Shown here one piece after another: positions 1,921 through 5,854 of a stretch of 64,000 bases of DNA (within the stretch, counting starts at the first letter, position 1; the number at the start of each line of letters is the position of its first letter). The DNA comes from Quadrisphaera sp. RL12-1S. GTDB lineage: Bacteria > Actinomycetota > Actinomycetes > Actinomycetales > Quadrisphaeraceae. A program made the translations under genes and the position numbers. The stretch covers positions 248,001-312,000 of the forward strand of contig NZ_JACNME010000001.1 of the NCBI RefSeq assembly GCF_014270065.1, written 5' to 3'. Below the pieces are notes generated by a model that was not told where the DNA came from, ran no database searches, and was given only the letters and a program-made list of their open reading frames with translations.

Positions 1921-1949
1921 TTGGCCCCCGCCGCAGGACCCGCTAGCGT
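1921..1949 (+). promoter_or_regulatory. candidate promoter of the cation exchanger gene
   Basis: TTGGCC at 1921-1926 and TAGCGT at 1944-1949 are separated by 17 bases. Transcription would start near 1956, giving a leader of about 130 bases before the GTG at 2089. Confidence 0.55.
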
Positions 1950-2088
1950 CGTCATCGGCCCGCCGCGCGGGCCACCACGACTCGTCCTGACCGATGGCGG
2001 TGAGCTGGTCGCGGGCCCCTCGGGTCCCCGGCTCGCCGCCTCCTCGCCGCGCCCGCACGGGGGCGGCGACCTGCTGCGGAGGCACCGC

Positions 2089-3198
2089 GTGCTGCTCACC
2101 CTCGTCCTGCTGCTCGGCTGCGCCGTCCTGATCTACCTGGCGTGCGAGTGGTTCGTCAACGCCGTCGAGTGGCTCGGCGTGCGCATGGCCGTCGGGTCGG
2201 CCGCCGTGGGGACCGTGCTGGCCGCCGCTGGCACCGCCCTGCCCGAGAGCGTCGTCACGCTCGTCGCGGTGCTGTTCGGCTCCGAGGAGACCGGCGCTGA
2301 CGTCGGGGTCGGCGCGGCGCTGGGCGGTCCGCTCGTCGTCGGCAGCCTGGCCTACGCCGTGGTCGGCGTGGTGCTGCTGGCCAACCGCCGCGCGGTCCGC
2401 CGCAGCGCCGGCAGCCGTGTGGTGGCCGCGGAGCGGGTCGGAGCCGCAGGAGCGGCCACGGGCTCCTCCCGGGGCGGGCTCGCGGTGGCCGCCGGCGGAC
2501 CGACCGCCGCCGAGACCGCCCAGCTGGCCGAGCTCGACACGCGCTCCCTGGCGCGCGACCAGGCCTGGTTCCTCGTGAGCTTCGCGGTGGCCGCGGGCCT
2601 CGGCCTGGTGGCGTTCGCGGTGAAGCCGTGGCTCGGCTGGGTGTTCTTCGGCGTCTACGCCGTCTACTGCTGGCGCCAGGTGCGCGCCGGCGGCGAGACC
2701 CACAGCGCGGAGGACCTCGAGCCGCTGAAGGCCCAGCCGAAGCGCGAGCGGCCGAGCACCACAGCCGTCGTCGTCCAGGTGGTCGTCTCGCTGGCCGTCA
2801 TCTTCGCGGCGTCGCAGGTCTTCGTCGGGCAGCTGGAGTCGCTCGCCCCCCAGCTGGGGCTGTCGGCGTCCCTCGTGGCGCTGCTCCTGGCACCGATCGC
2901 CACGGAGCTGCCGGAGATGCTCAACGCGCTGATCTGGGTCCGCAAGGGCAAGGTCTCCCTCGCGCTGGGCAACCTGGCGGGCTCCATGGTCATCCAGGCG
3001 ACCATCCCCACCGGCCTGGGCCTGGCCTTCACCAGCTGGCACGTGCAGGGCCCGCTGCTGCTGGCCGCGGTCGCCACGCTCGCCTGCGTCGGCTACCTGC
3101 TGGTGCTGTTCACCACCCGGCGGGTCAGCGCGGTGCGCCTCGCGGCGGCGGCCTCGGCCTACGGCGCCTTCGCCGTCGGCCTGGCCCTCACCACCTGA
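2089..3198 (+). CDS. calcium/sodium:cation antiporter family membrane protein
   Basis: Integral membrane exchanger of the CaCA superfamily (CaxA/YrbG type), which moves Ca2+ or another cation against Na+ or H+. Seen: two alpha-repeat signatures, GTALPESVVTLVAVLFG near the N-terminus and ATELPEMLNALIW followed by GNLAGSMVIQA near the C-terminus. About ten hydrophobic segments surround a polar central loop. I chose GTG at 2089 because GGAGG at 2078-2082 lies 6 bases upstream and the first transmembrane segment starts at once (369 aa). The same frame opens at a TTG at 1921, but that would add a non-hydrophobic, Pro-rich leader and overlap the promoter. The ion specificity is inferred only. Confidence 0.85.
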   Translation: MLLTLVLLLGCAVLIYLACEWFVNAVEWLGVRMAVGSAAVGTVLAAAGTALPESVVTLVAVLFGSEETGADVGVGAALGGPLVVGSLAYAVVGVVLLANRRAVRRSAGSRVVAAERVGAAGAATGSSRGGLAVAAGGPTAAETAQLAELDTRSLARDQAWFLVSFAVAAGLGLVAFAVKPWLGWVFFGVYAVYCWRQVRAGGETHSAEDLEPLKAQPKRERPSTTAVVVQVVVSLAVIFAASQVFVGQLESLAPQLGLSASLVALLLAPIATELPEMLNALIWVRKGKVSLALGNLAGSMVIQATIPTGLGLAFTSWHVQGPLLLAAVATLACVGYLLVLFTTRRVSAVRLAAAASAYGAFAVGLALTT

Positions 3199-3283: not shown

Positions 3284-4594
3284 TCAGCGCTGGGGCGCGG
3301 CAGTGGCCTGGGTGTGCGTGCCGATGGCCCAGACGAACGGCGGCGTGGTGCCGTTGACGGACCAGTCACCCACGATGCGCGTCTTGTAGATCACCGGGTT
3401 GTGCGAGGCGACCGTGCGGGCGTTGCGCCAGTGCCGGTCGAGGTCCTTCGCGCGCGACGTGCCCGAGGCGCCGAGGGTGTTGAACAGGAGCGTCGCGGCG
3501 CGCGGGACGCTCTCCGAGAGCACCACCTGGGCCTGCGCGGTGGCGATCTCCGCGCGGACGTTGGCGGCGAGGTCGGCCTCGCTGTCGCGGTCGTGCGCGG
3601 TGTCCGCCGCCCCCTGGACGGCGGACGCGGCGGCCAGCGCGATCGCGCGGGCGGCGAACGCGACCGAGGAGATCTCCCCGGCCACCGCGAGCACCTGCGG
3701 GTCCTCGCGGACCACCGGTGCCAGCCCGTGGCTGTAGGAGCGGGTGCGCGAGCGCACCTCGTGGGCGGTGTCGCGCTCCACCGCGGCGGCGATGCCGGCG
3801 TGCACCGCCAGCAGCACCAGCTGGTAGAGCGCCGTCTGGTAGCGGAACCTGTCGTCGAACGGCGCCAGGTCGTCCTCCGCGACCACCGCGTCCTCGAGCA
3901 CCAGCGTGCCGGTGCCCGTGAGCTGCTGGCCGAAGCCGTCCCAGTCGTCGCTGACGGTCACGCCGGGCTGGTCCAGCCGCACGAGCGCCGTGACCGTCCC
4001 CGCGGCGGCGTCCCCGGCCTCCTGCGCGGCCACGGTCGCCTCGTCGGTGAGCTGGGCGACCACGTCGGTCCACCCGGCGTAGATCGTGCCGGTCGTGTAG
4101 TACTTGCGGCCGCTGACGCGCCAGCGGCCGTCGGCGTCGCGGCGCACCTTGGTCGACTGGCCGCCCAGGGTGGTGCCGCCCGTCTCGCTCCACGCGTTGC
4201 CGGTCCACTCCCCCGCGGCGACGCGCGCGAACCACGCGTCGCGGTAGGGCCCCTCGGGCAGGGAGAGCAGGTGCTCCACCCACGCGACCTGCCCGCGGAA
4301 GATCTGCGGGAGGTTGGAGTCGACTGCGGCCAGGTCGATCATCAGCTCGGTGAAGGAGACCAGGTCGAGGCCGTCACCACCGTGCTCGACGGGCACGCGC
4401 AGGCGCGTGAAGCCCGCCGCCACCAGGGCTTCCACCTGCTCGCGCGGCAGCTGGTGGTCGACCTCGCGCTGCACCACGTCGCGGACGACGGCGTCGAAGA
4501 CCGGCTGCAGGCGGGCGCGGGCCGCGGCGAGCCGCTCGGCCTGCGTGGTGGGCTGGGCGGTGGGCTGGGCGGTGGGCTGGGTGGTGGTGCTCAT
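3284..4594 (-). CDS. acyl-CoA dehydrogenase-fold flavin monooxygenase, DszC/SfnB-like
   Basis: Protein of the acyl-CoA dehydrogenase fold, 436 aa. It looks more like the sulfur-compound monooxygenases (DszC, SfnB) than a beta-oxidation enzyme. Seen: a central AWSETGGTTLGG stretch with VSGRKYYTTG after it, and a C-terminal DRHWRNARTVASHNPVIYK block typical of that branch. Such enzymes use reduced flavin from a partner reductase to oxidise organosulfur substrates. A SAM-IV riboswitch precedes the gene, and sulfur genes commonly carry one, so the context agrees. The N-terminus has QPTA repeats encoded by a 12-base tandem repeat. No flavin reductase or sulfonate transporter gene is adjacent, so the substrate is unknown. 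Confidence 0.8.
   Translation of the reverse strand: MSTTTQPTAQPTAQPTTQAERLAAARARLQPVFDAVVRDVVQREVDHQLPREQVEALVAAGFTRLRVPVEHGGDGLDLVSFTELMIDLAAVDSNLPQIFRGQVAWVEHLLSLPEGPYRDAWFARVAAGEWTGNAWSETGGTTLGGQSTKVRRDADGRWRVSGRKYYTTGTIYAGWTDVVAQLTDEATVAAQEAGDAAAGTVTALVRLDQPGVTVSDDWDGFGQQLTGTGTLVLEDAVVAEDDLAPFDDRFRYQTALYQLVLLAVHAGIAAAVERDTAHEVRSRTRSYSHGLAPVVREDPQVLAVAGEISSVAFAARAIALAAASAVQGAADTAHDRDSEADLAANVRAEIATAQAQVVLSESVPRAATLLFNTLGASGTSRAKDLDRHWRNARTVASHNPVIYKTRIVGDWSVNGTTPPFVWAIGTHTQATAAPQR
4547..4582. repeat. three 12-base tandem units in the monooxygenase N-terminus
   Basis: The unit GGTGGGCTGGGC is repeated three times; the last copy ends in GT. On the minus strand it encodes QPTA, QPTA and QPTT. 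Slippage would change length in steps of four residues without a frameshift. Confidence 0.85.
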
Positions 4595-4649
4595 CGACAG
4601 CGCTCTCCTCGGCGATCGGTGGTCGTCACCGGGCGCCGCTGCCCGGGAC

Positions 4650-4770
4650 CGACGAGGAGGAGCGCGTCGTTACCGGGCGCGGACGCCTGGTCCGGTCATC
4701 ACCCGGGGCACCCCACGACGCGGGGGTTGCCGGCCAGCGAGCCGGGGCTTGGCGCTGGCGCTCATGACCT
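4650..4770 (-). ncRNA. SAM-IV riboswitch
   Basis: Read on the minus strand from 4769, the leader has a core close to the SAM-IV consensus. Stem P1 pairs GGTCAT (4764-4769) with ATGACC (4694-4699). P2 pairs GCCAGCG with CGCTGGC around an AAGCCCCGGCT loop. Then CGGCAACCCC pairs with GGGGTGCCCC as P3. The 3' extension to about 4650 would hold the pseudoknot and expression platform and is less certain. It begins about 17 bases after the lplA stop and ends before the monooxygenase gene. The class turns downstream sulfur genes off when S-adenosylmethionine is plentiful. Confidence 0.85.
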
Positions 4771-4786
4771 GGGCGGCACCGTAGCG

Positions 4787-5854
4787 TCAGGGCACCCGGG
4801 CGGTCCAGGCAGGGTCGAGGTACTTGCGCTGCGCCAGGTCGCGCGCCGCCGCCAGCTCCGCCTCGGTGACGTCCCCGTCCACGAGGCCGTACCGCGAGCG
4901 GAACGAGGCGGCCATGGCGCTGATGACGTCCTCGCGGGCCATGCCGGTCTGGGAGCGCAGCGGGTCCACGCGCTTGGCAGCGCTGGTGGTCCCCTTGTCG
5001 GAGAGCTTCTCGCGGCCGATGCGCAGCACCCGCAGCATCTTGGTGGCGTCGATGTCGTACGACATCGTCACGTGGTGCAGCACCGCGCCGGGCCTGCGCT
5101 TCTGGGCGGCGCCCGCGATCTTCCCCGCGGCGGAGACGATGTCGTTGATGGGGCGGTACTCGGCCCGGACCCCCAGGTCCGCGAGCGCCTCCAGCACCCA
5201 GGCGTCGAGGAAGGCGTAGGACTCGACGAAGCCCATCCCCGCCACCAGGGACGACGGCACGGTCAGCGACCACGTGATGGTGTTGCCGGGCTCGGCGAAC
5301 ATGGCCCCGCCGCCGCTGATCCGCCGCACCACGTCCACGCCGAGCTCGCCGGCCGCCTCCGCGTCGACCTCGTTGCGCAGCGACTGGAAGCTGCCGATGA
5401 TCACCGTCGGGCGGTCCCACTCCCACACCCGCAGCGTCGGCCCGCGCCGCCCCTGGGCCACCTCCTCCAGGAGCACCTCGTCGAGGGCCATGAGCAGCTC
5501 GGGGCTCTCCGGCCCGCGGTGCACGAGCGACCACGCGTGGTCGGCGAAGCCCGTCGCCCGCGCCAGGGCCCGCCGCACGACGACGGCGACCGCTTCCGGC
5601 GTCACCCCGACGAGCACGGCACCGGCCGGCAGCGCGGAGCGGACCCGAGCGGCCAGGTCGGCGGCCTCGGTGTCGGCGGGCAGCCCCTCGAGCGCGGCGT
5701 CGATCGCCTCGAGGGCGTCGTCCGGCTCCAGGAAGAAGTCGCCCGAGATGCGGACGTCGCGCAGCACTCCCCCGGCGCTCAGCTCGTGCGGGCCGGTGAC
5801 CTCGAGGTCGACCACCACCAGCTTGCCGCCGGGGACCTTGTACTCGCCGTGCAC
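4787..5854 (-). CDS. lplA: lipoate--protein ligase family protein with N-terminal accessory domain
   Basis: Biotin/lipoate A/B ligase family, expected to activate lipoate with ATP and attach it to lysines of 2-oxoacid dehydrogenase E2 subunits or GcvH. The first ~90 residues (MHGEYKVPGGKLVVVDLEV) resemble the LplB/C-terminal accessory domain, here placed first. The catalytic part follows with VRRISGGGAMFAEPGN, the nucleotide/lipoate-binding region. Next come NDIVSAAGKIAG, whose Lys is the usual catalytic residue, and HHVTMSYDID. GTG at 5854 is preceded by GGAGCAGG. The tsaD stop is 19 bases upstream, so the gene is probably co-transcribed with the tsa genes. It could instead be a lipoyl or octanoyl transferase of the same fold. 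Confidence 0.85.
   Translation of the reverse strand: MHGEYKVPGGKLVVVDLEVTGPHELSAGGVLRDVRISGDFFLEPDDALEAIDAALEGLPADTEAADLAARVRSALPAGAVLVGVTPEAVAVVVRRALARATGFADHAWSLVHRGPESPELLMALDEVLLEEVAQGRRGPTLRVWEWDRPTVIIGSFQSLRNEVDAEAAGELGVDVVRRISGGGAMFAEPGNTITWSLTVPSSLVAGMGFVESYAFLDAWVLEALADLGVRAEYRPINDIVSAAGKIAGAAQKRRPGAVLHHVTMSYDIDATKMLRVLRIGREKLSDKGTTSAAKRVDPLRSQTGMAREDVISAMAASFRSRYGLVDGDVTEAELAAARDLAQRKYLDPAWTARVP

Follow-up and report, generated by a model that had tools for sequence, protein, structure and literature searches.

How does a riboswitch that senses S-adenosylmethionine (SAM) come to stand before a flavin monooxygenase gene, and what would the pair do for the cell? This question is raised by a locus of Quadrisphaera sp. 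RL12-1S within a stretch of 64,000 nucleotides (nt; contig NZ_JACNME010000001.1, positions 248,001 to 312,000), here called the window, whose numbering is used throughout. Our data suggest a model, to which we assign a probability of roughly 0.78, whereby a SAM-IV riboswitch governs how much of a two-component flavin monooxygenase is translated, and this enzyme, by oxidising a small organosulfur compound (probably at the sulfur atom), feeds methionine synthesis. A sequence-only reading of the same DNA had proposed a SAM-IV element governing a DszC/SfnB-like monooxygenase as a single-gene unit, and these claims are taken up below where the evidence bears on them.

The element upstream of the monooxygenase gene is a SAM-IV riboswitch. 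A cmscan covariance search of the whole window gave a full-length match to RF00634 at 4769-4661 (minus strand), complete over model positions 1-116 and scoring 83.2 bits against a gathering score of 38 (E 2.4e-13); the Rfam matches in the window number four, and this is the sole riboswitch, the remaining three being tRNAs. The P1 and P2 helices noted earlier agree with the match, with P1 as GGUC/GACC in the Rfam alignment. Both pseudoknots (PK) set out in the accessible portion of the SAM-IV cryo-EM paper (PMC6890682) can be traced: PK-1, by eye from the letters, joins RNA positions 24-28 to 64-68 in five pairs, and PK-2, by script, joins positions 48-55 in the P3 loop to 100-107 in the tail in eight exact pairs. 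The aptamer ends 66 nt before the gene for the protein of 436 amino acids (aa), and the leader and gene are arranged as follows.

4661..4769, minus strand: SAM-IV aptamer RF00634, full length (cmscan)
4766..4769, minus strand: P1 5' strand GGUC (Rfam alignment)
4694..4697, minus strand: P1 3' strand GACC (Rfam alignment)
4742..4746, minus strand: PK-1 5' strand CCCGG in the P2 loop (by eye; topology as in the accessible portion of PMC6890682)
4702..4706, minus strand: PK-1 3' strand CCGGG (by eye)
4715..4722, minus strand: PK-2 5' strand CGCGUCGU in the P3 loop (exact 8-nt complement, script)
4663..4670, minus strand: PK-2 3' strand ACGACGCG (script)
4653..4662, minus strand: putative anti-Shine-Dalgarno strand CUCCUCCUCG, immediately 3' of PK-2 (predicted folds)
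4605..4609, minus strand: Shine-Dalgarno (SD) AGGAG (sequence and script)
3284..4594, minus strand: monooxygenase open reading frame (ORF), 436 aa, ATG start (NCBIfam, Pfam, PDB sequence search, AlphaFold, fold searches, tree)

The element shares with SAM-IV RF00634 the full-length match, the helices, both pseudoknots, an actinobacterial host and a sulfur-related gene downstream, features from which it would be expected to bind SAM; among the six SAM-IVs of the genome it scores lowest. It differs in its target, since the published ones, in the parts available of the respective papers, are O-acetylhomoserine sulfhydrylase (PMC3774663) and a class-V aminotransferase (PMC8269248), whereas here it is a monooxygenase. 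A narrow literature search, which did not include the founding SAM-IV description and leaves an earlier mention possible, found neither a monooxygenase as a SAM-IV target nor a report of SfnB coupled to a riboswitch.

Profiles and predicted structure assign the protein to the flavin monooxygenases of group D, which have the acyl-CoA dehydrogenase fold; it is neither SfnB nor DszC and belongs to a separate clade. SfnB is its best curated profile at 241.8 bits, below the TIGR04022 equivalog cut-off of 430.9, followed by DszC at 109.2 bits, below the NF043015 cut-off of 850, and by two further monooxygenase models at 41.3 bits, a value that no curated model besides SfnB and DszC exceeds. The AlphaFold model (mean local confidence score, pLDDT, 89.8; 56 sequences) lies closest to MsuC (Z-score 41.8), DszC (41.3) and TdsC (40.9) in VIA-align, against 37.9 for the best acyl-CoA dehydrogenase, and TdsC, DszC, MsuC and MAB_4123 occupy rows 1-27 of the Foldseek and rows 1-11 of the VIA-align results. 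The fold searches thus place the protein in group D, that is, among acyl-CoA dehydrogenase folds nearest to DszC/MsuC. A genome scan for relatives of the enzyme yielded 80 loci, and the window protein was aligned with 55 of them. None of these 56 sequences reaches the SfnB cut-off as judged by E-value, the best (1.1e-88) being far below it because 286.2 bits corresponds to 3.7e-85, and SfnB is the best curated profile for all 56 (E 1e-50); true SfnBs reach 603 bits (Shinella) and 648.4 bits (Acinetobacter). In an IQ-TREE phylogeny of 71 rows the window protein falls within a 58-row clade (support 100/100) that stands apart from three SfnBs and also from a group formed by DszC, TdsC, MsuC and a second actinobacterial type. 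The curated cut-offs and the tree rule out identity as a true SfnB or DszC; the earlier label holds, then, for a group D monooxygenase nearest to SfnB, MsuC, DszC and TdsC, and fails for membership of either named family.

Comparison with the named enzymes gives the same picture. Like SfnB, the window protein has this fold, the same best profile and similar neighbours in its family (luciferase-like monooxygenase (LLM) and MetNIQ genes), but it reaches only about half of the TIGR04022 cut-off and belongs to the separate clade; SfnB-type and window-type genes coexist within a few kb in Shinella and Acinetobacter records. DszC, TdsC and MsuC are its top PDB matches by sequence and fold, and it keeps their C-terminal motif RxWR(N/D)xRT...H(N/D)P, but it has 23-27% identity to them, carries Gln at the position of DszC His92 and lies outside their clade. 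The C-terminal His equivalent to DszC His391 is kept in 56/56 aligned sequences; both of these residues are presumably functional in DszC. From this relationship, FMNH2 (reduced flavin mononucleotide)-dependent monooxygenation with a separate reductase is predicted for the window enzyme.

The genome as a whole supports the sulfur-scavenging context that the sequence-only reading had suggested, with SAM-IV units on methionine-supply and monooxygenase genes. SAM-IV occurs in six copies in total, of which three lead metQNI, metNIQ and metY-metX (MetN and MetI being labelled by eye from the ORFs). The fourth leads an S-methylmethionine-permease-like gene (501 bits, under the cut-off of 716) with an LLM monooxygenase of the NtaA/DmoA family behind it (441.7 bits, above cut-off), the fifth an operon that combines an acetyltransferase-like gene with four LLM monooxygenase genes, two of which score above a family cut-off, and the sixth the window monooxygenase gene. 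Taken together, the six units resemble a programme for supplying methionine and scavenging sulfur, and their common leader type suggests that they may be co-expressed. Because the genome has six such units, likely partners of the enzyme lie elsewhere in the same regulon, as had been supposed; the flavin reductase genes (PF01613) are also unlinked, with three in the genome, none in the window and none near a SAM-IV by position. An unlinked reductase is no obstacle, since in the available part of PMC13352529 the single reductase MsuE supplies all monooxygenases of the Acinetobacter baylyi dimethyl sulfide (DMS) pathway. The first steps of that pathway, according to the same part, are taken by Dms1-Dms3, group D enzymes oxidising DMS and dimethyl sulfoxide (DMSO), and the window enzyme resembles those of strain ADP1 in its group and in a shared reductase presumably encoded elsewhere. 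An A. baumannii record holds an adjacent SfnB-type and window-type pair that would fit a dms1-dms2 arrangement; because two SfnB-like genes also form an adjacent pair in it and another window-type gene stands there by an LLM gene, the window clade could match any of Dms1, Dms2 and Dms3, or none. A 3.66-Mb A. baumannii record (L193, NZ_CP077849.1) is labelled a plasmid and looks chromosome-sized. For Gordonia, the accessible portion of PMC11852219 gives a 312-fold rise of sfnB on dibenzothiophene by quantitative reverse-transcription PCR.

A census extended this view to 39 genomes, of which 29 (this one included) carry SAM-IV, in 102 copies sorted by their first gene with tblastn, some of the DNA being cut by contig ends. 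The first genes are metY (21), metX (6), methionine-type ABC transporter (17), class-V aminotransferase (12), LLM monooxygenase (9), window-type (6), a second acyl-CoA-dehydrogenase-fold type (3), APC permease with LLM (2), hydantoin-type operon (3) and others (12); 11 are unassigned, three of them with a metY-like gene 0.7-1.1 kb on. The second acyl-CoA-dehydrogenase-fold monooxygenase, on the DszC/MsuC side of the tree, is SAM-IV-led in three genus genomes (L133, L154, L155); in the window's genome, no gene of this type stands behind any of the six SAM-IVs. In L117 (1767-6107, minus strand) and L162 (genomes G002 and G004), SAM-IV is followed by genes for a cytosine/purine-type permease, a hydantoinase A-like protein and an S-methyl-thiohydantoin-desulfurase-like protein (PF06032/PF20906; families scanned in L117 only), which is likely a further organosulfur scavenging operon. 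Close SAM-IV pairs occur in L117, L132 and L113: tandem copies about 0.8 kb apart precede the hydantoin operon in G002, while in G001 and G003 the paired copies are divergent and stand about 0.1 kb from each other.

The pairing of riboswitch and enzyme recurs among relatives. With a model built on the genome's six copies, whose consensus structure has some lone pairs, we found that 17 of the 80 related loci carry a same-strand SAM-IV no more than 2 kb upstream, in three actinobacterial groups: a Kineosporiaceae group (five: L015, L016, L017, L019, L026), Arthrobacter (eight: L034, L035, L036, L039, L042, L045, L054, L088) and Citricoccus/Micrococcus (four: L064, L067, L078, L087). Mapped on the first enzyme tree, the presence of SAM-IV requires at least six changes, gain or loss alike. 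SAM-IV lies directly before the ortholog in 6/6 genus genomes examined (the window's included), and a profile search (E 1e-60) found the enzyme family in 6/6 genus genomes and in 0/7 other genomes of the GTDB family. Sulfur-related genes accompany the enzyme as well, a cluster of LLM monooxygenase proteins being present at 43/80 loci (family tested for the L021 members). The nearest relatives, in Microbacteriaceae, carry an LLM monooxygenase, a second acyl-CoA-dehydrogenase-fold gene and the window-type gene in a row at L021, L025, L027, L028, L030 and L032; no Rfam riboswitch was found at 11 Microbacteriaceae loci without SAM-IV (L020, L021, L022, L024, L025, L027, L030, L032, L033, L037, L040), where one tRNA alone reached gathering level. 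Four proteobacterial plasmid records were viewed for neighbours: the window-type gene stands by LLM, MetNIQ and MFS genes in Pantoea, by SsuD, MetY-like, MetNIQ, SfnB and LLM genes in Shinella and by an LLM gene in Burkholderia, and the Eleftheria plasmid has a second acyl-CoA-dehydrogenase-fold gene and no LLM gene. A second SAM-IV lies near the start of the following LLM gene in L078 and L087, and in three Sinomonas loci (L063, L066, L076) SAM-IV lies 4-5 kb downstream.

We propose that control is exerted on translation. With ample SAM, the aptamer (P1, P2, P3, P5, PK-1 and PK-2) would fold, the linker right after PK-2 would pair with the SD and little enzyme would be made; a shortage of SAM (methionine) would open the leader and allow the enzyme to be made. 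The five further SAM-IV units would be expressed alongside, namely metYX, two methionine-type ABC transporters and two LLM units (the S-methylmethionine-permease-like gene with its LLM monooxygenase, and the LLM monooxygenase operon), and reduced flavin would come from a reductase encoded elsewhere. The off-by-SAM direction, which the sequence-only reading had also suggested, would follow that of SAM riboswitches on methionine genes, and the substrate, probably oxygenated at its sulfur, may be of the dimethyl sulfide, sulfoxide or sulfone class. In the predicted fold of the window tail and linker, the anti-SD strand directly adjoins PK-2 and is base-paired to the SD. The probability that the SD is unpaired is 0.00 there, compared with 0.41 when the linker is shuffled (0/60 shuffles as low). 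In the other five orthologous genus leaders it is 0.00-0.02 against 0.31-0.41 (0-2/60 as low), all six leaders being mutually related, and L017 and L026 use another anti-SD stretch against the same SD. Hairpin z-scores are -3.78 for the window, -2.08 for L015, -1.87 for L016, -1.69 for L017 and -1.83 for L026. Among the 36 of 49 genus SAM-IV leaders tested (eight had no SD by script and five were not reached), all six orthologous ones stood at no more than 2/60 shuffles, versus 1/30 others. A general hiding of the SD across genus SAM-IV leaders proved weak, at a mean unpaired probability of 0.31 versus 0.38 (p 0.02, including the six orthologous leaders).

Several observations weigh against this model. 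At the position equivalent to DszC His92, 53 of the 56 aligned sequences have His, but the window, L015 and L016 have Gln (residue 102 of the 3284-4594 minus-strand product, in the window's 4460 region). SAM-IV was not found near 63 of the 80 related loci (among them L018, a fragment of the same metagenome-assembled genome as L026, cut off at the gene), nor in seven proteobacterial stretches (the four plasmid records and three from Acinetobacter), where the best score was 16.6 bits (E 0.49); the enzyme therefore does not need SAM-IV. Around the Eleftheria relative, the annotation shows a polyketide synthase and a branched-chain-type ABC transporter but no sulfur gene. The predicted whole-leader fold hides the window SD whether the aptamer and PK-2 are held (0.09) or free (0.01), hiding is less complete in the orthologs (0.02-0.23), and a Kineococcus leader stays at 0.34-0.36 with a hairpin z-score of -1.04. 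Finally, transcripts may reach the gene by read-through from its upstream neighbour.

The last point concerns the transcription unit. The direct neighbours are a convergent Na/Ca-exchanger-like gene (1921-3198, plus strand) and lplA (5854-4787, minus strand), which lies on the same strand as the monooxygenase gene and ends 17 nt before the riboswitch; they include no flavin reductase, sulfur-compound transporter or sulfonate gene, just as the sequence-only reading had stated. Its single-gene unit is unproven because of this closeness of lplA, and no sigma-70-like promoter and no intrinsic terminator was found by consensus scans of 4500-5300, the promoter scan not being designed for actinobacteria. 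The gene might instead be an intra-operon cistron, read chiefly from the tsaD-lplA side, with the riboswitch merely trimming translation, a reading that has real claims but that we hold to be the less probable. It draws on the 17-nt distance, on the scan that found no promoter and on the fact that lplA lies directly upstream, at 16-17 nt by coordinates, in three of five other genus genomes (L015/L182, L016/L177, L178). In the examined DNA of L017, L019 and L026, however, no lplA was found upstream, and the SAM-IV-gene pair therefore occurs without lplA too; the unsuitability of the promoter scan for actinobacteria also counts against this reading. In the enzyme tree, L015 (NZ_VDMJ01000003.1) falls with Quadrisphaera, and it too has the lplA-SAM-IV-enzyme order; the name on its record, Streptomyces sp. 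NP160, looks wrong.

The whole-leader folds raise a second alternative, in which all else in the model holds and the riboswitch acts by stopping transcription, through intrinsic or Rho-dependent termination in the leader. No SAM-dependent switch was visible in these thermodynamic folds, and since the SD is hidden in them whether or not the aptamer is constrained, the switching step of the translational model is our inference. We nevertheless consider a transcription stop the less likely course, as no intrinsic-terminator-like site was found in 4500-5300 and the predicted SD hairpin marks the leaders of this gene rather than other genus leaders. That the protein is a true acyl-CoA dehydrogenase with a coincidental sulfur link is scarcely credible, for although the protein matches each of the three acyl-CoA dehydrogenase domains of Pfam at a score over the cut-off, which is common to proteins of this fold at large, the curated dehydrogenase models give at most 31.2 bits and a related desulfinase 34 against the 241.8 of SfnB, the top structural matches are MsuC, DszC and TdsC, and SAM-IV and sulfur genes repeatedly stand beside the gene; profiles and fold ranks thus agree with the original call of a monooxygenase, the tree having held no true dehydrogenase for comparison.

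A further hint as to the substrate comes from relatives whose enzyme gene has an AmiS/UreI gene as its immediate upstream neighbour (11/80 loci). In seven of these 11 (L034, L035, L036, L039, L042, L045, L088) SAM-IV stands ahead of both, and the three AmiS/UreI proteins of this set that were scanned (L034, L035, L039) were confirmed by Pfam as family members. This position beside the enzyme hints at a small neutral substrate. At L136 (5213-6007, minus strand), a locus in one genus genome, an AmiS/UreI gene (Pfam 155.4 bits) stands directly behind SAM-IV, with no window-type monooxygenase within 4.5 kb downstream of it; no AmiS/UreI gene was found in the window's own genome. As a long shot, we speculate that actinobacterial SAM-IV runs an uptake and oxidation module for small uncharged organosulfur compounds (for example DMSO or dimethyl sulfone), in which the AmiS/UreI channel would admit the compound and the window-type monooxygenase would oxidise it; the window would then show a reduced form, with the enzyme alone and the linker hiding the ribosome-binding site. 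If true, UreI-type channels would have an unrecognised organosulfur role, and the link would offer a direct, testable guess at how DMS- or DMSO-like compounds enter the cell.

The translational model of SAM-IV control over the monooxygenase has wider consequences. The known targets of SAM-IV would no longer be confined to genes that make or import methionine and would include likely organosulfur monooxygenases in a scattered set. For the enzyme clade, to which no substrate has been assigned, candidate partners and neighbours can now be named. If the model is true, the level of SAM in these actinobacteria would govern the use of DMS, DMSO and similar compounds.
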